A stretch of DNA of 64,000 nt from positions 2,356,001 through 2,420,000 of the forward strand of contig NZ_CP087184.1 of the NCBI RefSeq assembly GCF_024749045.1. Direction: 5' to 3'. Position numbers and translations under genes: made by a program. The notes under the pieces were generated by a model. It was not told the DNA's origin. It made no database searches and saw only the letters and a list, made by a program, of their open reading frames with translations. Source of the DNA: Pseudomonas sp. B21-028. GTDB lineage: Bacteria; Pseudomonadota; Gammaproteobacteria; Pseudomonadales; Pseudomonadaceae. Positions within the stretch are counted from its first letter, which is position 1. Each line of letters begins with the position of its first letter. Of this stretch, positions 5,475-64,000 are shown piece after piece.

Positions 5475-5523
5475 TTTATGAACTCTGGAAGGCGACCCGT
5501 TTAAAGTGGGCGCCGGTTGGGTA

Positions 5524-5820: not shown

Positions 5821-5919
5821 CTGTAGGAGCTGGCGAAGCCTGTGATCATTTGATTTTTCGCTCTCGATTCAGCTGGTAGCGGCAAATCGCAGTTTCGTTG
5901 TACTCGACAGCTCCTACAG
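5821..5919. repeat. Inverted REP-like pair (BIME)
   Basis: CTGTAGGAGCTG at 5821 and its reverse complement CAGCTCCTACAG at 5908 face each other across about 75 bp in the intergenic region before the GNAT gene. The TGTAGGAGC core is the usual head of Pseudomonas REP elements. The rest of the 5700-5941 gap shows no gene. Confidence 0.6.
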
Positions 5920-5941
5920 GCGTTGCTTTGACGAGGTATCC

Positions 5942-9627: not shown

Positions 9628-9703
<76 letters not shown>

Positions 9704-9925: not shown

Positions 9926-11764
9926 ATGGCACTCTCAGAAATGACAGTTCGGCATGCCCGAATCACTGGTAACGACTACACCCTCGGTGACAGTGATGGT
10001 CTCACGCTCAACGTGACGGCCAGAGGTGGAAAAGTCTGGCTCTTCCGCTACTACTGGGCGGGCAAGCAGAAGCGCATGTCCTTGGGTTGTTACCCGCAAA
10101 TCTCCCTCAAAGATGCACGTACTCGACGTGACGAGGCGCGCGCCTTGGTTGCCCAGGGCATCAATCCCTATGAGCATCGTAAACAACAGCGACTTGCTGT
10201 TCATGCTGCGAAGGAGCACACCTTCGAGGCCGTGTTCAATCAGTGGGTAGAGTTCCGCAGGCTAAGCCTGAAGGAAGGGCGCCAGAGCACGCTCTCGCAG
10301 ATCTTGAGAATCTTCAATAAGGACGTCCTGCCCACGCTGGGCGGATGCTCCATCTACGATATCAATCGTCACGATCTATTGGATTTGCTGAGCAGGATCG
10401 AACAGCGCAAGGCCTTAACGACTGCCGAAAAATGCCGGACCTGGTTCAACCAATTGTTCCGCTATGCGCTGGTGAAGATCGAGGGGCTGGAACACAACCC
10501 AGCTTCAGACCTTGATGTAGTTGCACTACCCAAACCTCCGGTTACGCACAATCCGTTTCTCCGCATGGACGAGCTGCCGGCATTGATGGCTGCTCTTCGA
10601 AAATACGGTGGCGCCAACCAAACTCGGCTTGGCCTTCGGTTGTTGCTGCTGACCGGTGTCCGCACGGGCGAGCTGCGGCTGGCGACGCCCGACCAGTTCG
10701 ATCTGGCGAAGCGTTTGTGGGTCATACCGGCGGAGGTGGTGAAGCAGCTCCAGTTAGCGATGCGGAAGCCAGGTAAGCAGACCCAAAATGTACCGCCGTA
10801 CATTGTCCCGCTATCGGTCCAGGCGCTGGAGATCGTGCGTCACTTGCTGGACCAGGTGGTCCCTGCGCAACGCTACTTGTTTGCGCATCGAAGCGACCTG
10901 AGCAAGCGCATCAGCGAGAACACGCTGAATGGCGCGTTACGTCGGATGGGGTATGCCGATCAACTCACCGGTCATGGCATGAGGGCGACGATTTCGACGG
11001 CGCTGAACGAGATCGGATACCCGAAGGTGTGGGTGGATGCTCAGCTTTCTCATGCTGATCCAGATAAGGTGAGTGCGGCTTACAACCACGCGGAGTACGT
11101 TGAACAGCGCCGGACCATGATGCAGGACTGGGCGAATCGTCTGGACCTTTGGGGGCAGGGCCAACTGAAAGCGGCAAGTTCTCCGCTGACCATTCGTTTA
11201 GAGGGCGCAGCTTCGTTACCTTCGTTGGAAAGCGCGAATGCAAACGCCGTTCTGTACAGCAGTGGCTTCCCAGAGACGACGGTCCCAGCCTCCAAAACGT
11301 CCGTCAGCAACGAACCGGTCAACGCGGCTCAGTATTCACCTGTCCTACCTGTTCCAATGCAGACTGAACAGCTGCGCGAACCCCGAGTATCCGACATACA
11401 ACGCCAGCGCGCCGAGATGCTAGCCATCTATGAAGCTGCGAGTAATTTGCCACTGCTTATCTTCGCCAAACTGGCAGGCAAATCCCGAGATCAGATCAAT
11501 CGCGATATCAAGGCTCGGCGCCTGCTGTCCCTGAGTCTGGGGAATCGCGGTCAGCGCATTCCCGATTGGCAGCTTGATCCACTGCGGCACAAGTTGGTGC
11601 TAGCGGCGTTAGCGCAATTTCCAGATGTCGATGCGTGGAGGCTTTATCGGGCTGTCTGTGAGCCTCATGAACGACTGAAGGATCGTTCGCCAATCGATGT
11701 GCTCACACCGGAGAATTTCGACGTGACTGCACGAATCGTTTGCAGTGCGCTGGGTTCGAGCTAA
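9926..11764 (+). CDS. Tyrosine recombinase, P4/IntB13-type ICE integrase
   Basis: This site-specific recombinase integrates and excises the ICE at the tRNA-Gly 3' end. Residues 1-90 form the DUF4102-type arm-binding domain (LTLNVTARGGKVWLFRYYW). A core-binding region follows, then the catalytic domain with Arg in TGVRTGELR (about 246), HGMR (350-353), LSHAD His (about 376) and the likely nucleophile Tyr in AAYNHAEY (about 386). A C-terminal extension of about 200 residues follows the catalytic core, as in IntB13 of ICEclc (usual length about 650). The position directly after the tRNA is the normal one. All catalytic residues are present, so it appears intact. Confidence 0.93.
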   Translation: MALSEMTVRHARITGNDYTLGDSDGLTLNVTARGGKVWLFRYYWAGKQKRMSLGCYPQISLKDARTRRDEARALVAQGINPYEHRKQQRLAVHAAKEHTFEAVFNQWVEFRRLSLKEGRQSTLSQILRIFNKDVLPTLGGCSIYDINRHDLLDLLSRIEQRKALTTAEKCRTWFNQLFRYALVKIEGLEHNPASDLDVVALPKPPVTHNPFLRMDELPALMAALRKYGGANQTRLGLRLLLLTGVRTGELRLATPDQFDLAKRLWVIPAEVVKQLQLAMRKPGKQTQNVPPYIVPLSVQALEIVRHLLDQVVPAQRYLFAHRSDLSKRISENTLNGALRRMGYADQLTGHGMRATISTALNEIGYPKVWVDAQLSHADPDKVSAAYNHAEYVEQRRTMMQDWANRLDLWGQGQLKAASSPLTIRLEGAASLPSLESANANAVLYSSGFPETTVPASKTSVSNEPVNAAQYSPVLPVPMQTEQLREPRVSDIQRQRAEMLAIYEAASNLPLLIFAKLAGKSRDQINRDIKARRLLSLSLGNRGQRIPDWQLDPLRHKLVLAALAQFPDVDAWRLYRAVCEPHERLKDRSPIDVLTPENFDVTARIVCSALGSS

Positions 11765-12883: not shown

Positions 12884-12973
12884 TTTCTGAACTCATCCGT
12901 TCTTTCAGATTTTCTAGAATGTAGATCACCATTCCAATTCTGTAAGCCTTCATTCAGCGGCATCACGCTTACG

Positions 12974-14764: not shown

Positions 14765-15239
14765 TTAACTTAACCTCAACTGCTCGTTCTTTACAGATGT
14801 TGCGGTAGGCGCGCTTTATCATCAGTAATGCAATACAGAGCCTGCTTTCATCTTTTAGGATATTATCGATAAGTTTTTTCCCGGAATCCGTTGCTTCAAT
14901 CCGGGAAGTGCTCTTGTCGATGATGATAAAACCCGTATTTTCCAAAAATGTAAAAGCCTTCACGGTGCGGATTCTCAGGTTTGCAGACCAGCCCAGTTCT
15001 TGGCTCGATCCCTTGAAACCTGCAAGGCTTTTTTCAAAGCAAGCGCCTACTAACATTCCGATCTCGTCTTGCTTGGGCTTGGCTCTGGAACGCGCGAGTA
15101 GAATGATGGTAAGCGCAATCAGCGGGGTATGGAATAGACTCTCATTCCCCAGTACATCCTGACGTCCCCGGGGGGTGCTTTCGGTCAACAACGCTATCGA
15201 TTCAGCCCTGGCGGTCGAGACGGCCTCGCGGAAATTCAT
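14754..15239 (-). CDS. lmuC: Lamassu LmuC-like / ABC-three-component middle component
   Basis: A 161-residue protein lying between nuclease and ATPase with overlaps on both sides (4 bp and 11 bp). It contains a central winged-helix-like segment (NLRIRTVKAFTFLENTGFIII...IEATDSGKKLI), as expected of the 'middle component' that bridges the SMC ATPase and the effector. Sequence conservation in this family is low, so the call depends strongly on gene order. Alternatives are any small wHTH adaptor. Confidence 0.7.
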   Translation of the reverse strand: MNFREAVSTARAESIALLTESTPRGRQDVLGNESLFHTPLIALTIILLARSRAKPKQDEIGMLVGACFEKSLAGFKGSSQELGWSANLRIRTVKAFTFLENTGFIIIDKSTSRIEATDSGKKLIDNILKDESRLCIALLMIKRAYRNICKERAVEVKLNEI

Positions 15240-16396: not shown

Positions 16397-17224
16397 TTGG
16401 ATTATCTTTGCATATGCTGAAATATGAGCGCCCTAGAGCACGCTGAGCTTCTAGATGTAATGCAGAAAAAATCTTTGCGTCGGGTACTGTCGAGCCGTTG
16501 AGCGATACGTTGGCGATAACGTGGATACATCTATTTGGTGGTAGATGGAATTTATGCCCGTTGCCAGCTTCTCTTTGGGACGCATGCTCACGTGCTACGC
16601 AACATGTCGCAGAGCGTTTGAATTGGTTGCGCGCGGGTGGCGGGCACGATGCTTTATCATTTTGGGTGATGCTGTCCATGCCACCTTCCATTGCCGTCTC
16701 TCGCCCGTGAGAGGATTCCTTTTTGGATTCCCTGATGGTGGCGGGAGGCCACTTATAATGCAAGTCAGATTTGAAGGATTTTCCTCGTTGTCTGGGCGAA
16801 GCTCAGGCGCAAACAGATAGCTCTCGGCTTGCCGAGGCATTCTCAAATGCTCAGTTATGCGTGGAGTTTCCTTGCTCTTGAGCCTTGCGATACAGCGATT
16901 GCAGGGTGTTGCGATGGAAATCTCTGCTGCACCTGATCTTGTTCTGTTGGCGCTGTGCGATTTTGACCCCGTCTTACGGAGTTCATTGACCTACCTCGAC
17001 GACCCAGAAATATGCTTTAACAGATACCGTCAAAGCAGAATGCCGGTCAGCGAAAACCAACACGCAGTGTCAAAACTGCAGATCGCTACCCTATTGATCA
17101 AAGACATCCGCGAAAAAACGATTGTTCATCTGCTGCTCCGACCATAGCGGACCGTACGTGGAAAATCAGAGGCGATTCAGATCTGATAGAATGCGTCGCT
17201 GATCCCTTCAGGATTTCCAGCCGT
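16397..17224. other. Gene-poor gap between Lamassu-type operon and FRG gene
   Basis: 828 bp without a convincing gene. Short frames occur on both strands; the best is at 16914-17147 on the plus strand (MEISAAPDLVLLALCDFD..., 77 codons), but it lacks a clear ribosome site and known motifs. The region should hold the divergent promoters for lmuA and the FRG gene. Confidence 0.5.
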
Positions 17225-18535
17225 ATGTTCAATTTCCTTGTTACTTCTTTAGACGGCGCCTGGGATTACCCCGGCTACGAATACGATAGAAGCCGCTTCC
17301 TCGAGTACACAAGCGATGACATTGCTGCGAGCTTTCAGGAGCTAAAGGAACCGCAGTTAAAGGCCCTGATGGAATTACCATGCCTGTTCGCCTATGAAGG
17401 TACCCAAGAGGCCATGCGTGTTGGCCGACTGAAGGTAAAATTGCGCAACGGTGGGCGATCGCTTTATGTCGAGCCGGTGTTCGATGAGAGCATAGCCCCC
17501 ATAGATTTCGAGCTGATTAAACCCCTGCAACCTGCTCTGGATATTCGCGACTGGGAGATCAATCGTACCCACTGGGCTATCAAGGACGAGGATCTCTTTG
17601 AGGTCTTAAGGCGGGCAAACCTCGCTCCAGCCCATGCAGAAAGCTCAAAGGTCGTCAAAGCTGACCTCCCGCCTGCGTCGTCCCCCGAAGTCCAGGCAAA
17701 CAGCGTTGGTGCATTTATTGAACACGTTTTCCGTCTTAACCATGGCGGAAGAGAGGTGTTCTATCGAGGTCATTCTAATAGTAAGAAATATCGGCTTGAG
17801 CCTTCGATTTTTCGAAAAGACGAGCGTGGAAATTTTATTTACCGAGATGCGGAAGACCGGATGTATAGGGAGCTACTAGTTTCCAACTCTGTGGACTTCG
17901 GTGGTGATATCTACACTCTTGATCGTCTCGTCCGGATGCAGCATTACTCTCTGCCGTCCAGACTGCTCGACATCACGTCCAACCCGTTGATCGGTTTATA
18001 TTTTGCCTGTAAGAGCCACCTTGACCAAGATGGGGAAGTCATCGTGTTCTCCATGGATCGAGATCAGATCAAGTATTTTGATTCAGATACTGCCAGCTGT
18101 ATTGCGAACCTAACTCGAGTTTCGAAGGGCTCGAAGGACACCATAGATTTTAGCACTAATGATATCCGTAAGTTTAACAAGCAGAAACCAATCAAACAAT
18201 TGTTGCATTTTATTAAAGAAGAGAAGCCTTTCTTTGAAGGACGGCTGGAACCCCGTCATCTGCGATCCGTTATATGCGTTAAAGGTAAGCACACCAATAG
18301 CCGCATCGCGTTTCAGTCCGGTGCATTCTTGCTTTTCGGAGATGAGGCTATTCTGGACGAGGGCGGGACACCTGACATTACGGTCAATCGCATCGCCGTG
18401 ACGAACAAACAGAAGGTGCTTCAGGAGCTAGATCAACTGAACATCAACGAGAGTACTGTGTTCCCCTATATTGAAAACTCAGCTAAGTACATCGCACAAA
18501 AATTTGCGTTTCGGGAAGCTGATCTGTTGCCGTAG
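17225..18535 (+). CDS. FRG-domain protein
   Basis: Residues about 160-340 form an FRG domain: EVFYRGHSNSKKYRLEPSIFR (FYRG at 179-182), then RMYRELLVSNS and MQHYSLPSRLLDITSNPLIGLYFA, the two most conserved blocks of the family. The N-terminal 140 residues are of unknown fold. FRG proteins often lie in phage-defence and mobile-element loci; a nucleotide-modifying or ADP-ribosyl-like activity has been suggested from fold comparison but is not proven. It is divergent from the Lamassu-type operon and AT-rich, so it is probably part of the same cargo island, possibly a second stand-alone defence gene. Confidence 0.8.
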   Translation: MFNFLVTSLDGAWDYPGYEYDRSRFLEYTSDDIAASFQELKEPQLKALMELPCLFAYEGTQEAMRVGRLKVKLRNGGRSLYVEPVFDESIAPIDFELIKPLQPALDIRDWEINRTHWAIKDEDLFEVLRRANLAPAHAESSKVVKADLPPASSPEVQANSVGAFIEHVFRLNHGGREVFYRGHSNSKKYRLEPSIFRKDERGNFIYRDAEDRMYRELLVSNSVDFGGDIYTLDRLVRMQHYSLPSRLLDITSNPLIGLYFACKSHLDQDGEVIVFSMDRDQIKYFDSDTASCIANLTRVSKGSKDTIDFSTNDIRKFNKQKPIKQLLHFIKEEKPFFEGRLEPRHLRSVICVKGKHTNSRIAFQSGAFLLFGDEAILDEGGTPDITVNRIAVTNKQKVLQELDQLNINESTVFPYIENSAKYIAQKFAFREADLLP

Positions 18536-18866: not shown

Positions 18867-20594
18867 TTAATTTTTTTCGATTCTAAGAAAAGGATTATCA
18901 AGTGGCGTCAATTCAAAAAATAGCTTCGGATCCTCAATCAAGTAGCCCTTCAAGGTTGTTTTCTTCCTAGGGCCTTGCACTTGGCATGTCCAGATATTCA
19001 GACCGTTGTCTCGCTTCCGGTGAATCTTCAGCTTCTCGAACTGCTTCTGCACCCATCGCCATTCCTCACCTGCGGAATCGGCCCCTAGTGAGATGCCCGG
19101 AAACTCCTGAACGTAGCGCTGAAAAAGGCCGGGCGTGACCAGAAATACAGTACCGCTCACCGTATGGATTTTGGCCTTGCTGTCATTGATGATCAGCTTG
19201 TGACTCAGGATGCCTTCCTTGACCCACTTCAGGAATTCCTGGCCTGGGTTATCCAATTGAAGCGTTGAAGTCTCGCCAGCATTTTCTGACGGTGCGTCAC
19301 CGGCCTCAGGCTCTTCCAACTCGAACATGTCCAGCAGCGTGCCGAGGTAATCGGCCTCCTCGAGCGCCATGAGATCCGGCTGCGGTTGGCTTTGAGCTGA
19401 TCCTGCACTGACTGTCTCGGGCGCAGGTGTTGGTATCTGGGTGTCAGTTGAGTGGTCATGGGCTGCAATGCTCACTGTTCCGCTGAAAGCCTCGGGCCGG
19501 TCTTTGTTCCCCCAAATCAACGCCGGTTGAAGGCGCAGAAAAGTGAAACTCTGCTGCCAGGTTCCCTGTGTCACAAGCGCGGTCCAGATGGCTTTACCTT
19601 CCGGCGTGGACTCAACCAATCCATGTGACTGCAGCTCGTCAAACACCGCGAGATTGGACGAGGGAATGCCTTCAATCGATTGCGACAGCAGATAGGCTCG
19701 CAGCTTGTCCGTGACCGTCTTGCTGACGAGCCAGAGCGCGTCCTGGGTCAGCCATCCCGCGGCACCTGGCTGGTTGAGTTTCAGTTCGTGCTGAACCAGA
19801 TGACGCAGTCCGCTGATCAAGTGATGTTGCAGCGAATGAATCGGTGCTTGCAGCACCTTGCTCGGGTTACCACCGATGTTCTGTGTGGTGGAAACGCGGT
19901 CGGCCTGCATCACCAACTCACCGAGCACGCCGGCACGTTCGTACTGGCCCGCCAGGACATAAAGCAGATTGGCCCACAGTGACGGAAATCCACTGAGCCA
20001 ATCGAGGATTGGACGGTCGAGAATTTGGGTGTAGAGCAAGCCTGCGGCGGCACCGTGCAGGTGGTAGTCACGGCCCTTGATGTAACGAAAACGGTAGGGC
20101 TGATCCAGGGCTCCCTGCCAAGGATGCCAAAGATGGCCGTCTTGGCGTTCGACCAGCAGGTCCACTGCGATCTTGCCGATGTCATGCAGCAGTGCACCAT
20201 AGGCGATGCCTGCGGACCAGGCATCGGTCTGGGCGGCTTGATCTTCGGGTGCGGCGCCGGTGGGAAGCAGATACGACTGACGCAACTTCAAACTACAAGC
20301 GACCAGCTCCAACCCATGGTCGAGCATGCCGCCAAGATAAGCATGGTGGTGCGTCTCGCTGGCTGGAAGCTGCTGGACCAGCTCGGCGTAGCGATGGATC
20401 GGATTTAAATAGAGCTGCCTGAACTGCTGATGGGAGAGGGCGGTGTACTGCCAGATGCGATCGAGCAACTGGCGGCGATGCTCGGCTGCTAACAAGCTCT
20501 GGGACGATTCGATGGGCAGGTACCCATCGGCGACGTTTACGGTTGGTGGCGGAGGAGGCTTTTGCCTTTTTTGCCGAAACAGACTGAGCATCAT
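18867..20594 (-). CDS. traI: MobH-family conjugative relaxase (TraI, PFGI-1 class)
   Basis: This relaxase nicks the element at oriT and leads the strand into the recipient. The N-terminal TraI_2 domain holds the HD-like metal centre: HHHAYLGGMLDHGLEL and GALLHDIGKIAVD, both diagnostic of MobH. The C-terminal part (about 450-575) is the DUF1528 region (LSHKLIINDSKAKIHTVSGTVFLVTPGLFQRY). The start at 20594 is chosen because GGGAGG lies five bases upstream of two consecutive ATGs. Length 575 is near the usual 600-650. It stands apart from the transfer cluster, next to cargo, as in other members of this ICE family. Confidence 0.9.
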   Translation of the reverse strand: MMLSLFRQKRQKPPPPPTVNVADGYLPIESSQSLLAAEHRRQLLDRIWQYTALSHQQFRQLYLNPIHRYAELVQQLPASETHHHAYLGGMLDHGLELVACSLKLRQSYLLPTGAAPEDQAAQTDAWSAGIAYGALLHDIGKIAVDLLVERQDGHLWHPWQGALDQPYRFRYIKGRDYHLHGAAAGLLYTQILDRPILDWLSGFPSLWANLLYVLAGQYERAGVLGELVMQADRVSTTQNIGGNPSKVLQAPIHSLQHHLISGLRHLVQHELKLNQPGAAGWLTQDALWLVSKTVTDKLRAYLLSQSIEGIPSSNLAVFDELQSHGLVESTPEGKAIWTALVTQGTWQQSFTFLRLQPALIWGNKDRPEAFSGTVSIAAHDHSTDTQIPTPAPETVSAGSAQSQPQPDLMALEEADYLGTLLDMFELEEPEAGDAPSENAGETSTLQLDNPGQEFLKWVKEGILSHKLIINDSKAKIHTVSGTVFLVTPGLFQRYVQEFPGISLGADSAGEEWRWVQKQFEKLKIHRKRDNGLNIWTCQVQGPRKKTTLKGYLIEDPKLFFELTPLDNPFLRIEKN

Positions 20595-20822
20595 GGTCCT
20601 CCCGGGAACTGGCAAAGTCAGTTGCCTTTTAGCCTTTTCGGATAGGGCTCTTACCCTTGACTCCCCATTCCCTTCCAACCCTTACCGGTCCTTTTGACGC
20701 GGTTCCCTTTGTGCGGCAATTGGAATATCGATTTGTCCTGGTGCCGTTTTGTTGGATGCGCATGCTGGTACGAAAAAGGAAAGTGTCGGTACACTGCGGT
20801 GCGAATTTTATTGGGTCTTGCC

Positions 20823-28934: not shown

Positions 28935-31691
28935 CTATCCTAACGTCCCGATTCCTCGGGCCTGGTCAATACGCTCAGCTACCTGGAAAGCCGCTTCCAA
29001 CTCCGAGCAACCGTTCTCCTGCATCAACCTCCAGCGCTCGGCTTTTTCCTCCGGCTCCGTCATGGCCAAGGCGAGATAGAGGCTGGGTGGTACGGCTCGA
29101 AACAGCGTTTCGAGTTTTTTCGACAGCACGACCCCCTCAGTGTATTTCCCGGGCTCCTTACTGGCGGAGAGCAACAAAGCTATCTGTGCCGGCGTGAGCT
29201 TCTTGAAGCGGGCGATTTCCTCTATTTCCGCAGGTGGCATGTTCAAACAAATCCACCATTCGATCATGTTGAGCATGGTCTGCGCGGCAGTGGGGAAGTC
29301 GGCAAGGTTTTGCGTCGCCAGCCAGAACCAGGCCCCGAGCTTGCGCCACATCTTCGTCCCCTTGACTACAAATGGCGCCAGTAGCGGGTTCTTGGTGATG
29401 ATATGGCCTTCGTCGGTGACCATGATGATTGGTCGACCCAAGTACTGGTCGCGCTCGGCAAGGTTGTTCACGGTGTTCATCAGGCTGATGTAGCTGATGG
29501 ACATCTGGGCTTCATAGCCTTCGCGAGCGTACGTGGCCAGATCGACAACGGTCACATCGCTTTCGGGCCAAGGCGTACCCTCGCGATCGAACAGTTCGCC
29601 CTCGAATCCCTGGCAAAACAGGTCGATGGACTCGCCCATTTCCTGGGCACGTTCACGACGCTTCTCCGGTAAGTGCAAGTCGACGGCGGTGCGCAGCAAG
29701 GCGTCACGCACATCGCGGGTCAGTACCTGGCGACCCGCCGCGACACATGCCTGTGCCGCATCGAAAATGCACTCGCGGATCAGGCTGCGATCAGCCCGGC
29801 TCAGACGAGCTTCTTCCTTGGCCTCGCCGCCGGTGATCATCAGGCGAGCGGTGATTTCCAATTCGCCAAGCACATCGCGTTGGTCTTCGCGACTGGCTAC
29901 CGCCTCATCGTCCCACTCATCAATCGACAGGTTCGCCACTTGATCCGGCTGCTCGACAAGGCGCCGGGCATCGGCGAACGGGGCGAGGCTGATCGAGGTG
30001 CCAGGTTTCAGTTGGACCTTGTTGACCGACAGATCCTGTGTTGCGAAGTAGTCGCCCTGCAAACCAAACGAATTGCCGGCCTCGACGATAAACAGGCGAG
30101 GGCGGTACACCGCCATGACCTGCATCAGCAGGGTGACCAGGGTGGCCGACTTGCCGGCACCGGTCGGACCGAACAAGAGCAGATGACCGTTCATGGCCCG
30201 GTCCAGGCGTGACAGCGGATCAAAGCTCAACGGCGAGCCACCACGATTGAACAGGGTGATACCCGGGTGACCGGTGCCGGTGCTGCGGCCCCACACCGGA
30301 ACCAGGTTCGCCAGGTGCTGGGCGAACATCAGGCGGGTGTACCAGTTGCGCGTGTCGCGGGCCGGGTTATAGGCCATCGGCAACCAACGCAGGTAGCTGT
30401 TGCAGGCGGCGACTTCATCGCCTTCGCGTACCGGTTGTAGCCCCGCGCCCAACAGCGCGTTGGCCAGGCTGACCGAGCGCTGGTGCAGTTGCTGTTCATC
30501 GTGGCCGCGCACGTAGAACGCCAGGGTGCCGCGGTACAGCTTGTGCTGGCGACCGATGATCGCGCGAGCCTCTTCGACATCCTGACGGGTCTGGGTCGAG
30601 GCTAGGTTTTCACCGATGGCTTTGCGCGCCAATCGGTTTAACTGATCTTCGAGCACATCCTGCGGGTTGACCACCAAGGTCAGACTCATCACCGTGCCTT
30701 CGGGTAACTGGTCGAACAGGGCATTGACTGCATCACCCTTACGGGTTTCTCCGGTGAGTTGACCAATCGACGGTGCCCGTCGCAGTTTGTCCACCACCAT
30801 GACCCGATGGGGTTGCCCATCGAAGTACCAGAGTCCTCGTTGCACATCCGAACACGGTTCGTTGAAGAACAACCGTTCGGCGAAGTCGTGATCGAAGGGC
30901 AATTCCAGCGACCCGCCATCAGCAGGCTCTGGATAGGCAACACGTTGGTAAAAGCCCTCGGGCGTTTCATTCGTGAGCCTGGGTGCCGGATTGAACCAGG
31001 GCAATAACCAGGCATACAAACTGCGGCCATCAACGCGTGCCGATTGCACGCCGCACGCCTGCAACGAAGCCGCAATACGTTCGCAAGCCTGCTGCAGGGA
31101 TTGAACAGGGGGGAGTCCCGTCTCGTCGGCGCCAGACTCAAGCCAGCGATAGACCACCAGGCGCACCCGGCGGTTATTGCCACGCCAGGGTAGGCGCGTG
31201 ACCACCTTATCTTCGAACAGGCCACCGGGTTTGGCGATGGCCTGCATATGGCGGCGGCTGAGTTCCAGGTAAGCTTCGGTGAAGACCGTGCCTCGCGCGC
31301 TGTCCTGAATATGATTGGTGAGCTGGGTCAGGTAGGGGATGAAGTCGTTGTCGTCCTGGCAGAAAAACTGCGCCACCCAAGGCGCTTGATCGAGCTCGTC
31401 AAAGCTATCCTGCAGGGCGTCCTCAAGGGCATCGCGGGCGGCCATCAACCAATCGGGTTCGCGCCCTTCGGTGCCGATGGGCAGTAGTTCAAACACCGCG
31501 CCCACTGAGCGATTGTCATCAAGCAGAAAACACTGCTCGGTATCGAGGTATTCGACCCAAGGCAGGTGATCAGTGAAGCTGGGATTGTGCGTATAGAGTG
31601 CAGCTTCATCGGCCAAGGTGGCGCGAGGGCGCGCTGAGTGGCGCCAGGCCTTCCACGCGGCAGTGCAGTTGCCCGAATTGTGGGTACGCAC
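28935..31691 (-). CDS. Conjugative transfer ATPase, PFL_4706 family (VirB4/TraC)
   Basis: The cytoplasmic ATPase that powers pilus assembly and substrate transfer. The Walker A is LLFGPTGAGKSATLV in the middle of the protein and the Walker B is near IIMVTDEGHIITKNP, followed by the conserved LGAWFWLATQNLADFP. The N-terminal TraC-like half includes FLLDDNRSVGAVFELLP. Length 918 matches TIGR03744. It starts with GTG at 31691, overlapping by one base the TAG of the lipoprotein gene, so the two are coupled. It appears intact. Confidence 0.93.
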   Translation of the reverse strand: MRTHNSGNCTAAWKAWRHSARPRATLADEAALYTHNPSFTDHLPWVEYLDTEQCFLLDDNRSVGAVFELLPIGTEGREPDWLMAARDALEDALQDSFDELDQAPWVAQFFCQDDNDFIPYLTQLTNHIQDSARGTVFTEAYLELSRRHMQAIAKPGGLFEDKVVTRLPWRGNNRRVRLVVYRWLESGADETGLPPVQSLQQACERIAASLQACGVQSARVDGRSLYAWLLPWFNPAPRLTNETPEGFYQRVAYPEPADGGSLELPFDHDFAERLFFNEPCSDVQRGLWYFDGQPHRVMVVDKLRRAPSIGQLTGETRKGDAVNALFDQLPEGTVMSLTLVVNPQDVLEDQLNRLARKAIGENLASTQTRQDVEEARAIIGRQHKLYRGTLAFYVRGHDEQQLHQRSVSLANALLGAGLQPVREGDEVAACNSYLRWLPMAYNPARDTRNWYTRLMFAQHLANLVPVWGRSTGTGHPGITLFNRGGSPLSFDPLSRLDRAMNGHLLLFGPTGAGKSATLVTLLMQVMAVYRPRLFIVEAGNSFGLQGDYFATQDLSVNKVQLKPGTSISLAPFADARRLVEQPDQVANLSIDEWDDEAVASREDQRDVLGELEITARLMITGGEAKEEARLSRADRSLIRECIFDAAQACVAAGRQVLTRDVRDALLRTAVDLHLPEKRRERAQEMGESIDLFCQGFEGELFDREGTPWPESDVTVVDLATYAREGYEAQMSISYISLMNTVNNLAERDQYLGRPIIMVTDEGHIITKNPLLAPFVVKGTKMWRKLGAWFWLATQNLADFPTAAQTMLNMIEWWICLNMPPAEIEEIARFKKLTPAQIALLLSASKEPGKYTEGVVLSKKLETLFRAVPPSLYLALAMTEPEEKAERWRLMQENGCSELEAAFQVAERIDQARGIGTLG

Positions 31692-37993: not shown

Positions 37994-40096
37994 CTACCCC
38001 ACCTGATCCAGATCGAAGTTGGTTGTTGGGCCGCTTCCGCTCGCGCTCCACCATTGCCCTGCTTGTTCGTTATAAGTGGCTCGCATCCGCTGAGTGAGCT
38101 CCTGCAGGTCCTTGGGCATGGCATCGTTGTTGGAGGGTTTTGGCAATGGCATGCGGACTTTCCAGAGCTGGCCGCCGGCCTGGAAGGAGAACATCTGCCC
38201 CTTTGGCAAACTGACGATACTCGCTGGTTCGATCAGTGGCACACTGGTGCTGCTGACGCGATCCTGCGAAGACGAAGTGAAGTCTGTATTGGCCTCAGGA
38301 TCGGAGGTGTCTGTAGCGCCTGAGACCAGAGTCTTGGTCAGAACGTTGACCTTGGGTAACTGCTGGGTGAGTAACTCCGCGGTAGCGGTTTCACGCACGC
38401 GTAGCATCTGCAGGGTGTTGAAATTGCCGATCACCTGGCCGGCCTTGGCCCGGTTACCGATTCGCGCTTCGATGTCGCTGAGGGTCTGGGTGTAGGCCGT
38501 CACCTGAATGCCGGCGCCACCTCCCTTGTTTATAAGCGGGATGAACTCGTCGCCCATCAACTCGTTGAACTCATCGGCGTGCAGGTTGATCGGTAGCTTC
38601 TCACTGCTGCTGCCTGCGGGCAGGCCGTGGTCAATGCCATGTTTGTAGATGTGGCCCGCAACCGAGACCAAGTCGGCGAACATGGAATTGCCCACGGCGG
38701 CGGCCACCTCTGCATCGGTCAGCGCATCCAGGCCGACGTAAACGATGCCGCGTTTTCGGATGATTTGCATCCAGTCGAAGATCGGCCGCGGATCATCTAA
38801 ATCGGTGTAGTTGGGCGCCAGTAATTGGGCGGTCTTGCCGGTGGTGAGTTTCTCCAGCAGCGGCAGTAGCGAGGCAACGATTTTGTCGAAGTAAGTACGG
38901 TCGTAGCGCACCGCTGAGCGCAATCCGTCCAGCACCGGGTCAAATACTCGTTTCGCCGCCAGGTATTGTTCGATGGCGACCACGCGCTTTTCTCGTCCCA
39001 CCATATGCCGGGGGATGTTCTTCTCGGTGAGCTTGCTTTCAAGCTGGACAATCACTTCCCACGCTTTTGGGTCGATCTTGGCGAAAAACTGCTGGGCGTA
39101 TTCTATAAACAGCGCGTCGATGTTGACCACATGTCGCTGAATTTGCAGGTAGTCCGGACGTCGGCCCAACTCGATTAGGGCGCGGGCGATGATGTTGACG
39201 AAACGCCAGGCGAACTCGCGAAACGCCGCCGAGTTACCTTCACCACTGAGCTGCCCAGCGATGCGCGACGCCACTTCCGAGATGCGCCCGAAACGTCCCA
39301 CGGCGTTGTAGCGGGCGGAGATCTCCGGCCAGCCTAGATGGAAAACATAGAACTCCTTTTGCCGACCAGCGCGTTTGGCTTCTACGTACATGCGTTTGAG
39401 CAAATCGGCATCGCCCTTCGGATCGAAGACGATGACCACTTCATGTTCGACGCGGTGAATGTCCTGGGTGATGTACACCTCGGCGAGCCGCGTCTTGCCA
39501 ACACGGGTCGTGCCCAGCACGAGGGTATGTCCGACTCGTTCACCCAACGGCAGACTGACTTCCGTTTCGTCGGGCTCAACCCCATGCAACAGCGGTGAGC
39601 CACCGACTGGAGGTAAAGGGCGCAACGGATTAAAGGCGCTGTTCCAGGCCGTGATACGGGCCAGTGTCGAGAGCGGAAACGGTGCATGTTCCAGGCGTCG
39701 TTCGAGTTCACGGGCCAGACGATAGCTGGTCGATTGGTCGACATAGTGGGCGACGGTCGGATCCTGGGCCTCGACCAAGCGCTGGGTGTGCAGGCGGGTC
39801 CAGCGAAAGCCGCGGCCCATGAACAGACGTTTGCGGCTCACCGGAATCTGCCGGCTGGTCAGCTCGTAGCGAGGCAGCCGGCGGATATTGCGCCGATAGC
39901 GCAACACCTCCCAGGCTTGTCGCAGGCGGATCAAACCGAACAGGGCATAGGCCAGCGCCGCAATCAGTCCGATCTCGGGTGATAGGGCCACGGCCCAGGG
40001 CGAATACACGCATAACACCGCCGCGGCGACGCAGATCGCCACGGTATACAGTTCAACTGCTGGCCGGAGTTTGGACTCCATCGCATGCTCGGCCAT
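37994..40096 (-). CDS. traD: Conjugative coupling factor TraD (SXT/TOL subfamily)
   Basis: The coupling ATPase links the relaxosome to the secretion channel. N-terminal membrane segments (LYTVAICVAAAVLCVYSPWAVALSPEIGLIAALAYALFGLI) precede the Walker A (LVLGTTRVGKTRLAE, about residue 196) and the Walker B (EVVIVFDPKGDADLLKRMY is the partner strand; LHADEFNELMGDEF carries the conserved acidic pair). TQTLSDIEARIGN is the family's sensor region. Length 700 is that of TIGR03743. It is intact. Confidence 0.93.
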   Translation of the reverse strand: MAEHAMESKLRPAVELYTVAICVAAAVLCVYSPWAVALSPEIGLIAALAYALFGLIRLRQAWEVLRYRRNIRRLPRYELTSRQIPVSRKRLFMGRGFRWTRLHTQRLVEAQDPTVAHYVDQSTSYRLARELERRLEHAPFPLSTLARITAWNSAFNPLRPLPPVGGSPLLHGVEPDETEVSLPLGERVGHTLVLGTTRVGKTRLAEVYITQDIHRVEHEVVIVFDPKGDADLLKRMYVEAKRAGRQKEFYVFHLGWPEISARYNAVGRFGRISEVASRIAGQLSGEGNSAAFREFAWRFVNIIARALIELGRRPDYLQIQRHVVNIDALFIEYAQQFFAKIDPKAWEVIVQLESKLTEKNIPRHMVGREKRVVAIEQYLAAKRVFDPVLDGLRSAVRYDRTYFDKIVASLLPLLEKLTTGKTAQLLAPNYTDLDDPRPIFDWMQIIRKRGIVYVGLDALTDAEVAAAVGNSMFADLVSVAGHIYKHGIDHGLPAGSSSEKLPINLHADEFNELMGDEFIPLINKGGGAGIQVTAYTQTLSDIEARIGNRAKAGQVIGNFNTLQMLRVRETATAELLTQQLPKVNVLTKTLVSGATDTSDPEANTDFTSSSQDRVSSTSVPLIEPASIVSLPKGQMFSFQAGGQLWKVRMPLPKPSNNDAMPKDLQELTQRMRATYNEQAGQWWSASGSGPTTNFDLDQVG

Positions 40097-59045: not shown

Positions 59046-59640
59046 CTATAGTACATCGAGGTGGTAGGGCAGCTTGATAGGCTTGGATAGTGTGTGTTGG
59101 TCGGCATAGGATCGCTTCGCGGAAGCCAGGCGTAGGGCGATACGTGCCAAGGTCTGACGAGGGATATCGATGCCGTGCCGGCCCAGCACGGTTTCAAGCT
59201 GCTCGCTGGCTTCCTCGCCAATGGTGTCTTTGCGGCCGTGAAGTGGCTGCAGGCCCCGCCGCAGCGTTTGAAAACGACGACTTTGTTGAGGTGGCAACAC
59301 ACTCGTACCGTCATCGTTTCGGATTGTTGAAGGAGATCCAGCCTATCGAAGCATAAAATCTCGGCTTGCCGCACAACCGAGGATCGCTATGCCTTCATTG
59401 GTTCTGGAGGGTCGGGCGGATGCAGTCGATCCACCTTCCAAGGACGACCCGTTCGCACGTCATTTTACCGGGCCGTATCGCCGAGAGATCTTGGAAAGCG
59501 TTGGCCATAACCTGCCCCAAGAGGCCCCAGGAAAATTTGCCGGCGGGATCTTGAGCCTCGGTGGTTGAGGCCATAAGAGTTGCACAACCGCTTGCGCCCG
59601 CCAGCCAAATACCGACGCCGTCATGCACCAGCACCTTCAA
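59046..59640 (-). mobile_element. IS66-family insertion sequence remnant (tnpB-tnpC fragments)
   Basis: Minus-strand pieces in the order of IS66. At 59590-59640, MKVLVHDGVGIWLAG matches the conserved core of the IS66 TnpB accessory protein. At 59046-59230, a frame with LGRHGIDIPRQTLARIALRL resembles the IS66 TnpC transposase 'RHGi.i.RstLA' region. Frames shift and stop between the pieces, so the element is dead. No inverted terminal repeats were identified. The first motif is the stronger evidence. Confidence 0.55.
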
Positions 59641-60569
59641 GCAGATCCGGCTGCAGCTTCCTGAAAAGAATGAATGATGGCTTCAAGCATCAGACTGGCT
59701 GTTCGACTCGATCCTTGCGTTTCCCGCGCAACGACAAACACCGGCCGTTCCACGATGAACTCCGGCAACGGCAGGCGAAACAAGGCGCCGCGCTCCACCC
59801 AGGGTTGGGCAATATGGTCAGGCACGATGCCGACAAAGCCGCCGCTGAGCAACAGCTGTACCGTGCCTTCGACATGATGGGCGAGGGCACTGGCGTTTTG
59901 CAGGAAGTTGGCCGGCGCAGTGTCCTGTACTAGGTAGCCACGACGCACATAATGCGCTGTCTGCTCAACAATCCGGCGGGCTTGTGCTTCGCTTTTGCCG
60001 AACGCTTCATGATCCCGGCCGCAGTATAGGGCCGAGGCTTCGGAGCCGATCACCTGATAGCTCAGAGAAGGCAGGTCGGACTTGCAAATAGTCACGCCCA
60101 CGCCAGCTTTTTTTTCGGCAACAGCACGTTCCACCGCATCCGGTGGCGCAACCCCGATACTAAGGTTGACCAACGGATAGTTGTGACGAAAATTTTGCAG
60201 CGCGTTGGCGATCGGGTTGCTGGGCGTGAAGGCGCTGTGATCGATAAGCCACAGGCTCAGATCACCTTTGATCTCTGCTTTCGAGCTAGCCAGAGTGTCG
60301 CGAAACTCATCGATCGAATCGAGCAGACGCAGCACCGCCGTGTAGGCGACCTGTCCTTCCTCGGTCAATTGGAAACCACTGCGCCCACGATGGCAGAGTT
60401 GGCTGCCGAAACGACTCTCCAAGTCGGACAATTGCCGGCTGATGGCCGAAATACCCATCCCCGTGGCCTCTTCGGCGGCTGACAGCCCCCCGCACTCGAC
60501 AACGGCCTTGAACAGTCGCCAGTGTTTCAAATCTATATCGTGCAAGGGTGGAACCGATGCTGTGTTCAA
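59637..60569 (-). CDS. LysR-family transcriptional regulator
   Basis: A 310-residue LysR protein: HWRLFKAVVECGGLSAAEEATGMGISAISRQLSDLESRFGSQLCHRGRSGFQLTEEG is the wHTH domain, and the remainder is the effector-binding domain (RHNYPLVNLSIGVAPPDAVERAVAEKKAGVGVTI...). It lies last in the minus-strand order amidohydrolase cluster, 91 bp behind the carbamoylase gene. It likely controls the cluster in response to a pathway intermediate. Its 3' end abuts the IS66 remnant. Confidence 0.9.
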   Translation of the reverse strand: MNTASVPPLHDIDLKHWRLFKAVVECGGLSAAEEATGMGISAISRQLSDLESRFGSQLCHRGRSGFQLTEEGQVAYTAVLRLLDSIDEFRDTLASSKAEIKGDLSLWLIDHSAFTPSNPIANALQNFRHNYPLVNLSIGVAPPDAVERAVAEKKAGVGVTICKSDLPSLSYQVIGSEASALYCGRDHEAFGKSEAQARRIVEQTAHYVRRGYLVQDTAPANFLQNASALAHHVEGTVQLLLSGGFVGIVPDHIAQPWVERGALFRLPLPEFIVERPVFVVARETQGSSRTASLMLEAIIHSFQEAAAGSA

Positions 60570-60660
60570 TGCATGTACTCCAGGTGCGGGGAGTAGCGCG
60601 CGTGACTCGGTTTGGCGGTGCGCGCTCAGTTCTAGCAGTGTTTTACACCAAGTCGTTGGT

Positions 60661-61920
60661 TCAGCCGAGCTGATCGTCCAAATAGATCAAGGTTTGTGCC
60701 AGCACACGAGTGCCGTCAAGCAACTGTTGCGGTTCCAGCCATTCTTCGGGGCAGTGGCTGCGGCCGTTAAGGCAGGGGATGAACACCATGCCCATGGGGC
60801 CGGTGGCACCGACATAGACGGCGTCGTGCCCGGCGCCGCTGGGCATGGTCATGTGCGGTAAGCCTAAACTTTCAGCCACTGCACTGATGGCCTCAATGAC
60901 TGTTTTCGAGCAGTCCGTAGGATCGGCGTACGTCAAGGGTACTGAGCAAGTAGTCAGTCTTAGCTCCGTCAGCACAGGCGCGCAGCGCTCCAGCAAGTTT
61001 TCCGGGAAATCGAGCAGTACCTGTTTTGAATCGCTGCGCACTTCGAGCACCATTTCAACCTTGCCGGGCACGGCGTTGGGCACATTAGGGCACACATCCA
61101 GACGGCCAACCGTCGCTACGACATAGTGCGGGTTACCGCTCATGTCGGCCGCTAAGCTGCGTGCTTCGCGAATAAGCTCCGCCGCACCGACCAGGGCATC
61201 TCGCCGCAGGTCCATGGGCGTAGTGCCCGCATGATCCGGCAAGCCATGCACGGTGATTCCGACTCGGCGAATACCTACGATGTTGGTGACTGATCCAATA
61301 GGCAGGCCACGACTTTCCAGAACCGGCCCCTGCTCAATGTGCAGCTCAACGAACGCTGCGGTGCTGCCGGGTTCTCGCAGAGCCTGGCCGAGGGCCGTCG
61401 GGTCGCCCCCGATACGGGTCATCGCCTGTGCCAGGCTTTCACCTGCTCTGTTTTGTGATGCGAGCATCTGCGCAGTCAGGAGCCCTGGAAATGCCCGGCT
61501 GCCGACACAGGAAATGCCATAGTCACTCGGTTCTTCCGAGAGAAAGTCGATCACCTGGAGCGGATGGCGCAAGCGTTGGCCGGCGTCTTTCAAGGCATGG
61601 GCGACTTCCAGCGCTGCCAGCACCCCTATGATGCCGTCGAACCGGCCGCCACCGACCACCGTATCGCAGTGTGAGCCACTGATCAGCGGTTTCAGACCAG
61701 GTTCGCTGCCATTGAGCTGACCAATCAGATTGCCACCGGCGTCCAGCGTGACGCTTAGCCCTGCCGACTCGAATTCAGACCTTAACCACAGCCTTGCCTG
61801 CTCAAACTCGGGTGAGAAGGCCCGTCGGGTCCATGGCACGTCTGGCAGCGTAAAGCTCGACAGCGTACTGACCCGATTCCACAGTCGTTCAATGTTCAAT
61901 TGCAGCAGGGGGGCGCTCAT
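60661..61920 (-). CDS. M20-family N-carbamoyl-L-amino-acid / allantoate-type amidohydrolase
   Basis: Binuclear-metal hydrolase that removes CO2 and ammonia from N-carbamoyl amino acids (hydantoinase-pathway second step) or related ureido acids. Metal-binding blocks are SGSHCDTVVGGGRFDGIIGVLAALE (His, Asp), FLSEEPSDYGISCVGSRAF (Glu pair) and VELHIEQGPVLESRGLPIGSV (His). GLPDHAGTTPMDLRRDAL is the dimerisation/substrate loop and GAGHDAVYVGATGPMGMVFIPCLNGRSH the last metal site. Length 419 is typical. The start at 61920 is one base after the hydantoinase stop. The context suggests N-carbamoyl-glutamate as a candidate substrate. Confidence 0.85.
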   Translation of the reverse strand: MSAPLLQLNIERLWNRVSTLSSFTLPDVPWTRRAFSPEFEQARLWLRSEFESAGLSVTLDAGGNLIGQLNGSEPGLKPLISGSHCDTVVGGGRFDGIIGVLAALEVAHALKDAGQRLRHPLQVIDFLSEEPSDYGISCVGSRAFPGLLTAQMLASQNRAGESLAQAMTRIGGDPTALGQALREPGSTAAFVELHIEQGPVLESRGLPIGSVTNIVGIRRVGITVHGLPDHAGTTPMDLRRDALVGAAELIREARSLAADMSGNPHYVVATVGRLDVCPNVPNAVPGKVEMVLEVRSDSKQVLLDFPENLLERCAPVLTELRLTTCSVPLTYADPTDCSKTVIEAISAVAESLGLPHMTMPSGAGHDAVYVGATGPMGMVFIPCLNGRSHCPEEWLEPQQLLDGTRVLAQTLIYLDDQLG

Positions 61921-61921
61921 T

Positions 61922-63292
61922 TCAATTCGTACCTGTTGTCGGTGCGCGAGGGCGCAGGAAGTGGCCGTAGCCCGGCTCGTTGAGAATTTGGCCCTGATCG
62001 AGGACACACTGGCCTCGGCAGTAGGTTGCCTTGACCCTTCCAGTGAAGGCCATGCCTTCAAATGAACTCCACTTCACGGCGCTCAGGCTGGTGGAAGGGT
62101 CGTAGCAATAGCGCTCGTCAGCCAGTACTACAAAATCGGCGTCCAGACCGACTGCAAAGTCGCCTTTACGGTCGTCGAGTAAAAAGTGCCTTGCCGGGTT
62201 GCGGCTGAGTTGCCGAACCACCAGCGACGGTGCCAGGCTCCTGGCCATAGAGCCGGTCCAGAATGCTGGCAGCAGCGTCTCCAACCCCGGCCCTCCCGAT
62301 GAATTGCGAAACACATTGGAATGTCCTTTGCGCTCCAGCCCCCAACTGACGTGGTCGGAGGACACAAAGGTGCACTGGTCCCTGGCGATGTGCTCCCAAA
62401 GTTTTTCGGTCTCGGCCTTGGGCCTGATCGGCGGGTAGTGCTTGGTTTTGGCGCCGAATCGTCGGGTGTGCTCTTCATGGTTGAGCATCAGGTACTGAAT
62501 GCACGTCTCGATGCTCGCCGGGTGTCCGGCTTGTCGATACATTTCGCACAACTGGAAACCACGGCTCGTCGACACGTGAACCGGGTGTGCCCGCGCACCG
62601 GTCTGTGCGCCGATTTCATAAATCAATGCAGTCGCCAAGTCCTCGACCAGCGGCGGATGGGCGCGTAGGAACGCATCCCACCCGGTGTCATTGGCCTCGA
62701 TCAGGCGGGTGATGTTTTTGCGTGTCAATTCCTGCATTTGATTGTGCACGCCACACACCAGGCCCGACGGTTTGATCAAGCTGAACAGCTCGGCCAGCAC
62801 GTCCTCTTCTATGCGTGGGAAGCGACCCGGTGCGGCTTCAAAGGTCGAGAACTTGAAGGCACACGCGCCGGCCTGGATCAATCCAGGGATGGCTGCCAGG
62901 CCGTGGGTTTCATTGACCGTCGCAAACAGGCCGACATCGACGTGGCAGTTGTCCTCGACCTCCTGAGCCTTGCGCAGCAGCTGTTCAGCGCAGGCCACGG
63001 GTTCCGGATCGTCGTAGGGCATGTCCACCATCACGGTGACCCCTCCCGCGGCGGCGGCACGGCTGGCCCAACCCAGACCTTCCTGGTTGGCCTGGCTTCC
63101 CGAATGCACTTGACCGTCGATCACCCCCGGTAAAATCCACTGCCCGCGCTCGTCACGCGTGTTTTTGGCCGCAGGTGGCTCGCCGGTGCCGCGCGCGGCG
63201 ATGCGTCCATCACGTATGGCAAGCCAACCGTTTTCGGTGGTCTTCTCGCTGTCGACGATGCGTCCCCGCACCACCAGATCGAAATCACTCAT
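61922..63292 (-). CDS. Cyclic amidohydrolase (hydantoinase / allantoinase / dihydroorotase family)
   Basis: A 456-residue TIM-barrel amidohydrolase that should open a hydantoin or related ring. It has WILPGVIDGQVHSGS where the usual metal motif DxHxH reads DxQxH (first His replaced by Gln), GACAFKFSTF with the carbamylated Lys, CGVHNQMQ, AHPVHVSTSRG and FVSSDHVSWG (metal Asp). Q-for-H in this position is known in some dihydroorotase-family members, so it need not be dead. It is first in the minus-strand operon and divergent from the urocanase-like gene. A hydantoin-5-propionate substrate is inferred from neighbours. Confidence 0.82.
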   Translation of the reverse strand: MSDFDLVVRGRIVDSEKTTENGWLAIRDGRIAARGTGEPPAAKNTRDERGQWILPGVIDGQVHSGSQANQEGLGWASRAAAAGGVTVMVDMPYDDPEPVACAEQLLRKAQEVEDNCHVDVGLFATVNETHGLAAIPGLIQAGACAFKFSTFEAAPGRFPRIEEDVLAELFSLIKPSGLVCGVHNQMQELTRKNITRLIEANDTGWDAFLRAHPPLVEDLATALIYEIGAQTGARAHPVHVSTSRGFQLCEMYRQAGHPASIETCIQYLMLNHEEHTRRFGAKTKHYPPIRPKAETEKLWEHIARDQCTFVSSDHVSWGLERKGHSNVFRNSSGGPGLETLLPAFWTGSMARSLAPSLVVRQLSRNPARHFLLDDRKGDFAVGLDADFVVLADERYCYDPSTSLSAVKWSSFEGMAFTGRVKATYCRGQCVLDQGQILNEPGYGHFLRPRAPTTGTN

Positions 63293-63488
63293 CTATCAGC
63301 CTCGTCATCGGGTGAATAAGCATGGAGCGAGTATCGACGGCGGGTATGGCGTCATCCATGCAGTGAATGACAACCTCACTTGCCATTTCTTGCATGGTTC
63401 CCCTCGGGGCAGGCCCGAATAATTCGAGCCATACCAGGGGAAGCCTTTCGACAGGCTTTCGCATTAACCTCAGCGAGAGTGGCCTTAC
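63293..63488. promoter_or_regulatory. Divergent promoter region of the catabolic cluster
   Basis: 196 bp between the hydantoinase-like and urocanase-like genes. It should hold both promoters and LysR-type sites. No clean -35/-10 pair or T-N11-A site was assigned with confidence by eye. Confidence 0.5.
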
Positions 63489-64000
63489 ATGACTCAGCAA
63501 AAAGCCAAACAAATCACGGCTGCGCGTGGCAGTACCTTGCGGTGTCGGGGGTGGAAGCAGGAAACCATTCTGCGCATGCTGGAAAACAATCTGGAGAACG
63601 CTGAGGACGCTTCGCGCCTGACCGTCTACGGCGGCATCGGCAAGGCGGCGCGCAACTGGGAAAGTTATGACGCGATCGTAGAGTCACTCAAGAACCTAGA
63701 AAATGATGAGACGCTGGCGATTCAATCGGGCATGCCAGTTGCCATTTTCAAGACCCACCGGCTCGCGCCACGGGTGGTCATGGCCAACAGCAACGTCATC
63801 AAGGCCGATTGGCCTAAATTCTATGACCTGAGCGCACAGAACCTGACGGCGTTTGCGTCCTACACCGCAGGGCCATGGCAGTACATCGGCAGCCAGGGAG
63901 TGATCGAAGGTACCTTCGAAACCCTTGCCTTGGTCGCCGATCGTCATTTCAACGGTGAACTGAAGGGCCGCATTTTCTTCACCGCGGGTCTCGGCGGCAT
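63489..64000 (+). CDS. Urocanate hydratase family protein (HutU-like, divergent), 3' end outside window
   Basis: The first 170 residues of a urocanase: ITAARGSTLRCRGWKQETILRMLENNLENAED, VYGGIGKAARNWESYDAIVESLKNLENDETLAIQSGMPVAIFKTH, APRVVMANSNVI, YTAGPWQYIGSQGVIEGTFETL and GRIFFTAGLGG. This is the NAD-dependent urocanase fold, but it differs from usual Pseudomonas HutU (for example RGxxLxxxxWxxEAPLRMLMNNLDPEVAE and ANSNLVPxW). It lies beside a hydantoinase and a carbamoylase, not beside hutHI. A thiourocanate hydratase or other urocanase paralogue is therefore as likely as histidine degradation. The active-site region is outside the window. Confidence 0.85.
   Translation, partial: MTQQKAKQITAARGSTLRCRGWKQETILRMLENNLENAEDASRLTVYGGIGKAARNWESYDAIVESLKNLENDETLAIQSGMPVAIFKTHRLAPRVVMANSNVIKADWPKFYDLSAQNLTAFASYTAGPWQYIGSQGVIEGTFETLALVADRHFNGELKGRIFFTAGLGG

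Follow-up and report, generated by a model that had tools for sequence, protein, structure and literature searches.

Gene content of the divergent operons

The 64,000-nucleotide stretch of Pseudomonas sp. B21-028 analyzed here (the window; C1:2356001-2420000, where C1 is the single-contig genome of 6.49 Mb) ends within a pair of divergent operons that encode, among others, a LysR-family regulator, a carbamoylase, a hydantoinase-like enzyme and a urocanase homolog, designated UroL. An earlier reading of the window's DNA letters (the original prediction) had assigned these four genes to a possible mobile route from ergothioneine or urocanate to glutamate, and all four were found where expected, with family matches far above cut-off. 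The features of the cluster are as follows, with extended coordinates continuing the window numbering past 64000 and scores given in bits against the cut-offs of NCBI curated models.

59637..60569, minus strand: LysR-family regulator (PF00126, PF03466), third gene of the leftward operon
60661..61920, minus strand: ErtE-type N-carbamoyl-L-glutamate amidohydrolase, M20-type (NF058540, 610.8 > 520)
61922..63292, minus strand: ErtD-type hydantoin-5-propionate amidohydrolase, amidohydrolase family (NF058538, 682.8 > 600)
63293..63488, no strand: divergent promoter region, 196 bp between the divergent starts
63489..65180 (extended; the window ends at 64000), plus strand: UroL, urocanase family by its family matches, 563 aa
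65193-66716 (extended), plus-strand operon: ATZ/TRZ amidohydrolase
66754-68280 (extended): HutH-like lyase
68378-69151 (extended): HisJ-like solute-binding protein
69241-69930 (extended): HisQ
69927-70691 (extended): HisM, assigned from its position and open reading frame (ORF) only
70688-71446 (extended): HisP ATPase
71443-72687 (extended): M20 hydrolase
72746-73138 (extended): ACT-domain protein

The gene content and the protein families can be read directly from the sequence, and we regard both as firm. The start of the carbamoylase was placed at an internal ATG (61920) adjoining the ErtD stop, the listed ORF reaching 62061, and the first 170 of the 563 UroL residues lie inside the window, whose end cuts the gene. 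It is because the window stops inside the urocanase that hutH neighbors had seemed to be absent, and this part of the original prediction was mistaken, as a HutH-family lyase begins 2.8 kb beyond the window end. Its companion claim, that hutI neighbors are lacking, holds for the operon, where no HutI-type gene was found among the scanned proteins and HutG was likewise not found. The region between the operons contains the motif AATAATT in 10 of 10 aligned sequences (eight Pseudomonas loci and two plasmids) and is probably a LysR control site for both operons.

The assignments of ErtD and ErtE, which we also consider firm, support the predicted passage through hydantoin-5-propionate and N-carbamoyl-glutamate to glutamate. 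Both proteins adjoin UroL not only in Pseudomonas but also on two Burkholderiaceae plasmids, in Mesorhizobium (L014) and in a gammaproteobacterial metagenome-assembled genome (L015). Because they pass the equivalog cut-offs both here and in Mesorhizobium L014 (ErtD 669 > 600, ErtE 553 > 520), hydantoin-5-propionate is the likely hub of the pathway. On a second ErtD model, NF058539, which we can only guess to represent a member of the ergothioneine sulfonate pathway, the ErtD-type protein falls short (351 < 650); a search of 394 genomes with that model gave no match and was uninformative, as its controls were likewise silent.

UroL, the lyase and the ATZ/TRZ amidohydrolase

UroL scores 629 on the broad hutU model (cut-off 375), 624 on that of S-methyl thiourocanate hydratase (SMTUH, NF058531, cut-off 880) and 601 on that of thiourocanate hydratase (TUH, NF058530, cut-off 930). 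With the HutU proteins of the same genome as a yardstick (1027 and 1023 on hutU), UroL lies about 400 bits lower, and even on the S-methyl model it stays below both of them (709). In a tree of 72 sequences, which is unrooted and carries a program warning about the long branches that separate UroL from HutU, 46 UroL-type proteins are split from HutU (12), TUH (6) and SMTUH (8) with a support of 100/100. By these scores and this topology UroL belongs to a clade distinct from HutU and from both thiourocanate hydratases, which bears out the earlier description of the urocanase as divergent. Identity with SMTUH was considered and rejected, since UroL misses the cut-off, lies outside the SMTUH clade and scores below the genome's own HutU on that model; SMTUH members over cut-off occur in eight genomes of another family. 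No solved structure was found for the UroL clade (records from Pseudomonadota, Bacillota, Desulfobacterota and Chloroflexota), and a literature search whose coverage left out most subscription journals found no study of a UroL-type urocanase or of the gene cluster.

The loci compared contain 135 urocanase-family ORFs, of which 124 were grouped and 11 stand outside the counts; the far loci described below were drawn from the 80 top-ranking of 473 confirmed stretches (76 distinct loci). We divided the UroL proteins into near, mid and far groups from their neighbors and identity, and in the tree near and mid (20) share a branch (99/97) while far (26 sampled of 66) form another (100/98). At position 124, HutU has Gln (26/26), far UroL has Gln or Asn (66/66), and TUH and SMTUH have Gly (14/14), while Ser is found in near (11/11) and mid (7/7) UroL; this pattern could accommodate a larger substituent at C2 of the imidazole ring, a reading that is suggestive only. 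Position 173 is Arg in all 18 near and mid UroL proteins and in 5 of 66 far ones, and in no HutU, TUH or SMTUH row. The partner genes of the mid loci (L016-L020, L023 and L027) amount to a few single matches (HutU, HutH, a weak ATZ, HisP).

The far clusters (59 loci among L021-L082, from Bacilli, Clostridia, Desulfobacterota, Chloroflexota and others) resemble the present one in having a UroL of the same clade, 58-65% identical, but differ from it in that 55 of the 59 have a HutI match nearby. Given this proximity, and since scanned HutI of L048 (381 > 298) and FtcD of L025 (422 > 221) pass their cut-offs, the far clusters appear organized for a route with formimino-glutamate as its end product. 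The same loci appear to contain a widespread UroL-HutI-lyase pathway whose lyases do not have the SH motif said to recognize histidine, perhaps for the breakdown of N-methylhistidine.

The lyase encoded in the operon contains the Ala-Ser-Gly (ASG) triad of the 4-methylideneimidazole-5-one (MIO) cofactor and keeps 11 of the 11 HutH catalytic-site positions examined, which suggests a substrate with a primary amine. In the ring pocket, the near lyases differ from HutH at 381, 383, 386, 387, 410 and 411, among 15 such columns (counted with one far row, L066, which does not have MIO, omitted), and the loop after the SH motif is also unlike that of HutH. Position 83 is His in HutH and in eight of the nine near lyases, the ORF of the ninth being truncated at that point, and Asp (30) or Cys (13) in all 43 far ones. 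In Pseudomonas kitaguniensis (L065:13482-14789) the lyase ORF is without its first ~70 codons, perhaps by a frameshift or an assembly error. Parts of the literature bear on this enzyme class: histidine ammonia-lyase is reported in a passage of PMC11432326 to accept 2-fluoro-histidine, ergothionase is described in a portion of PMC13405746 as being without the MIO cofactor, and a section of one paper calls MIO lyases with a specificity beyond His, Phe and Tyr undiscovered.

The third unusual component is the ATZ/TRZ amidohydrolase, whose metal and catalytic site (HxH, H, E, H, D; H65/H67/H238/E241/H275/D326) is invariant in 28 of 28 aligned relatives. It lies below every cut-off (25 of 29 matches listed), with 65 against 298 on hutI, and is 23% identical to HutF. 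An AlphaFold2 model of a 90% identical homolog, P0121 (mean predicted local distance difference test score 92), has as its nearest folds adenosine deaminases, isocytosine deaminase Vcz, TrzN and AtzA. The fold and mononuclear metal site are thus like those of known ATZ/TRZ amidohydrolases (isocytosine deaminase, S-adenosylhomocysteine/methylthioadenosine deaminase, TrzN, AtzA), but the P0121 model is only 24-29% identical to the solved chains and the operon protein partners a urocanase. Adenosine and isocytosine deaminases and the triazine hydrolases use water to displace a substituent from a ring carbon that adjoins nitrogen. All 11 Pseudomonas/Burkholderiaceae-type copies, own included, have the gene placed between those of UroL and the lyase, and this position suggests an essential step; among the matches listed (best 120 each), at least 12 source contigs are common to UroL and ATZ homologs. 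In both reference routes, those for thiourocanate (L120) and its S-methyl form (L117), a PF06032/PF20906 desulfurase is found near the hydratase, and the present operon has the ATZ/TRZ protein instead. More distant ATZ relatives (37-41%), on plasmids of rhizobia and Comamonadaceae, have as neighbors RidA together with a racemase, or a nucleoside deaminase, or a nucleoside hydrolase. On the rhizobial plasmids, the company of RidA and a racemase of the Asp/Glu type (L160) and that of a nucleoside hydrolase (L162) may mark unannotated nucleobase or hydantoin pathways.

Carriage on mobile DNA

That the cluster might be cargo of an integrative and conjugative element (ICE) was also part of the original prediction, and its carriage on mobile DNA is now firm. 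By genes scoring over their cut-offs, the window holds an ICE of the PFGI-1 class with an integrase at a tRNA-Gly, MobH, TraC, TraD and other ICE-family proteins.

9628..9703, plus strand: tRNA-Gly(gcc), the last 18 bp of which are the left attachment (att) repeat of the cluster-bearing element
9926..11764, plus strand: ICE tyrosine integrase, adjoining the tRNA (PF13356, PF22022, PF00589)
18867..20678, minus strand: ICE MobH relaxase, PFGI-1 class (NF041494 351 > 200, TIGR03760 301 > 161)
28935..31691, minus strand: ICE conjugative transfer ATPase, TraC type (TIGR03744 1473 > 521)
37994..40096, minus strand: ICE TraD coupling protein (TIGR03754 1124 > 648)

The 18-bp tRNA end occurs as direct repeats at C1:2365686, 2604259 and 2664181, and this recurrence in direct orientation places the cluster inside a 239-kb segment; the right end of the ICE is a presumptive one. 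A search of 316 kb turned up no further homolog of the integrase, TraC or TraD. The left flank is present in 13 of 13 genomes of the same-genus sample, own included, and the right flank is not conserved in that sample; in four genomes read downstream of the tRNA, the DNA there did not join both flanks. By eye, the region between the ICE integrase and relaxase (11996-18535) contains an ATPase-like ORF (12974-14764) and an FRG-domain-like ORF (17225-18535), which are possible defense cargo. The second att-bounded segment, of 60 kb and at the same tRNA-Gly, contains a second HutU/HutH pair (L006, C1:2621000-2638000), the HutH being 90% identical to that of the hut operon. Alongside the pair are a HutC-type repressor that passes its cut-off and what look by eye like a HisJQMP-type transporter and an aminotransferase.

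The named loci closest to the window are from Pseudomonas. Seven other Pseudomonas loci, from six named species, preserve a block from ~59.65 to 73.14 kb (74.08 in P. brassicacearum) at 82.4-83.0% DNA identity, gene by gene over at least 13.5 kb, and all 12 cluster genes are present in each, so that the genes are not together by chance. Outside the block, the 20-22 kb compared per locus contain no match longer than 200 bases, apart from ICE ParA-region DNA in two loci. The same gene order, but without the M20 hydrolase, occurs on conjugative plasmids of Burkholderia ambifaria CF3 and Paraburkholderia graminis PHS1, and the LysR homolog occupies the same place in the seven Pseudomonas loci (86-93% identity) and on both plasmids (66-67%). 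UroL is found in 3 of 298 genomes of the genus sample, own included; a search of a 394-genome same-family sample gave no match and, having no positive control there, was uninformative. Pseudomonas salomonii ICMP 14252 has two whole-cluster copies on different contigs (L009, L011), one of them 1.5 kb from a tRNA-Leu.

A proposed route for a modified histidine

Taking these observations together, we propose, with a probability of roughly 55%, that these horizontally moved and LysR-controlled operons would import a histidine that has a free amino group and a substituent X at C2 and convert it to glutamate. In the predicted order, the HisJQMP-type ATP-binding cassette (ABC) importer would take up the C2-X histidine, the MIO-type HutH-like lyase would release ammonia to give 2-X-urocanate, and UroL would hydrate this to 2-X-imidazol-4-one-5-propionate. 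The ATZ/TRZ-type metal hydrolase would then replace X with water to form hydantoin-5-propionate, whose ring ErtD would open to N-carbamoyl-glutamate, from which ErtE would release glutamate, CO2 and ammonia. C2 should already bear a heteroatom, because hydantoin needs C2 at the carbonyl level and no oxidase, hence nothing to oxidize C2, was seen in the operon. X may be an amino or substituted amino group in preference to sulfonate, sulfinate or a thioether. The amino type is favored because the deamination of isocytosine, which by analogy is the six-ring counterpart of 2-amino-imidazol-4-one, parallels the conversion of the latter to hydantoin. Very tentatively, and as a specific form that we think unlikely, we put forward a complete mobile module that would degrade 2-amino-histidine or one of its N-substituted relatives. 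Its MIO lyase would act on a substrate other than His, Phe or Tyr, its urocanase would be of a fourth kind, and an enzyme resembling isocytosine deaminase would convert 2-amino-imidazol-4-one-5-propionate to hydantoin-5-propionate. We know of no role of 2-amino-histidine as a natural nutrient.

Several observations weigh against the C2-X histidine proposal. The lyase clears the hutH cut-off (618.8 > 539, with 722 and 726 for the genome's own two closest HutH proteins), UroL clears that of hutU, and to our knowledge no abundant natural 2-substituted histidine with a free amine is known except 2-oxohistidine, for which the ATZ step would be superfluous. The Mesorhizobium L014 lyase has only 386 in common of the six pocket changes, identity to the ATZ relatives of L014 and L015 is as low as 30-35%, and Burkholderia sp. 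L27 (L013) has LysR, UroL, ATZ, the lyase and the ACT-domain protein with no ErtD or ErtE within 10 kb. The seven mid UroL loci have S124 and R173 as in the near clade, no ErtD or ErtE nearby, and a single, weak ATZ-type match (26%, L023). Finally, the columns that separate HutU and far UroL from TUH, SMTUH and near UroL number two at a first threshold and four at a second, and a control regrouping with near and far swapped gives six at the second. By column count, convergence of the UroL active site with the thiourocanate hydratases is thus not above chance; the suggested comparison with HutU showed a difference at position 124 that is suggestive only.

Ergothioneine itself, the substrate first suggested, was rejected, as the lyase has MIO, UroL fails the TUH model, and neither an ergothionase nor a thiohydantoin desulfurase was found. 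The desulfurase family PF06032 has no match genome-wide at E 0.001 (2 of 14 control genomes matched), and an ergothionase query from L120 matches five places in the genome at only 26-28% identity, four being HutH-family genes and the fifth at C1:501238. Of what had been looked for past 64000, a transporter (HisJQMP-type) is present, and no ergothionase or desulfurase was found. Other sulfur-bearing histidines (2-thio-, S-methyl-thio- or 2-sulfo-), from which the ATZ protein would free sulfide, methanethiol or sulfite, taking over the role of the known desulfurases, are an unlikely though arguable substrate: the thiourocanate route has ErtD and ErtE as well, one S-methyl-thiourocanate locus (L116) also has ErtE (560 > 520), triazine hydrolases, which displace chloride and methylthio groups, are among the nearest folds of the ATZ protein, and Arg 173 of near and mid UroL could bind an anion. 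Moreover, Yan et al., in 2022, reportedly reconstituted a catabolic pathway for ergothioneine sulfonate. However, UroL fails both thio-urocanase models, the genome has no PF06032 desulfurase, the MIO lyase argues against the trimethylammonium leaving group of ergothioneine or its sulfonate, and no family in the operon points to sulfur.

It is more doubtful still that the cluster serves ordinary histidine or N-methylhistidine, with the lyase, UroL and ATZ acting as HutH, HutU and HutI/HutF and with ErtD and ErtE salvaging hydantoin-5-propionate, to which imidazolone propionate autoxidizes. The passes of UroL and the lyase on the hut models and the HutI genes of the far loci would agree with this, but the genome already has a normal hut operon (C1:402-417 kb; HutF, HutC, HutU, HutH, HutI and HutG each over its curated cut-off) and a further HutU/HutH pair (C1:2626-2630 kb), the ATZ protein is remote from HutF and HutI, and ErtD and ErtE stand beside UroL in several lineages. 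A plain hut operon is likewise not favored, given the separate normal one and the place of UroL outside the HutU clade, and a plain urocanate route fits poorly, there being no C2 oxidation seen in the operon and two other HutU genes in the genome. The combination named at the outset as decisive for a normal hut operon was found in part, in that a hutH-like gene lies downstream, but hutI is not in the operon and UroL does not group with HutU. The least likely of the alternatives is 2-oxohistidine from oxidized protein, from which the lyase and UroL would give hydantoin-5-propionate directly, leaving the ATZ protein to act otherwise, for example on a precursor. This chemistry would need no separate C2 step, the Pseudomonas copies include an M20 hydrolase, and 2-oxo-imidazole dipeptides exist according to part of PMC8466808; against it stand the constant position of ATZ between UroL and the lyase and the M20 gene missing from both plasmid copies and from L013.

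If the C2-X histidine proposal is correct, the module is an apparently complete import and breakdown route on mobile DNA of some soil and plant bacteria, and it implies that some modified histidine is sufficiently common to merit transfer on conjugative plasmids and an ICE. The plasmid annotations 'urocanate hydratase', 'hutH' and 'amidohydrolase family protein' would then mask a pathway that resembles neither histidine nor ergothioneine breakdown, and the substrate becomes findable by assaying a few purified enzymes. A large clade of urocanases is also marked out, whose members should not be called HutU.

Among known systems, the ergothioneine-type cluster L120 (TUH 1061, thiohydantoin desulfurase NF058529 602 > 440, ErtD 788, ErtE 620) is like the present one in its ErtD and ErtE equivalogs and in combining a urocanase-family hydratase with an enzyme of the aromatic lyase family. 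It differs in having a TUH-clade hydratase, a desulfurase and an MIO-less lyase of the ergothionase type (no ASG triad; closest solved structure the ergothionase 6s7j), where the present operon has an MIO lyase, an ATZ/TRZ hydrolase and a HisJQMP-type importer. The S-methyl route (L116-L119, L124) shares a hydratase of the urocanase family, an ErtE that passes its cut-off in L116 and an MIO lyase in L117, but has an S-methyl thiohydantoin desulfurase that the present operon does not. L116 also contains a molybdopterin oxidoreductase (1561-3912) in an SMTUH cluster with two hydratase copies, and in L117 the MIO lyase (4538-6112), which has HutH active-site residues, lies four genes from the S-methyl thiohydantoin desulfurase, a layout that may point to breakdown of free-amine 2-methylthio-histidine in some organism as well. 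The hut system, finally, is similar in its histidine-type ABC importer and in that the present lyase and UroL pass the hutH and broad hutU models, but it employs HutI and HutG and a HutU that scores 1027 where UroL scores 629, and it proceeds via formimino- or formyl-glutamate, whereas the route predicted here would proceed via N-carbamoyl-glutamate.

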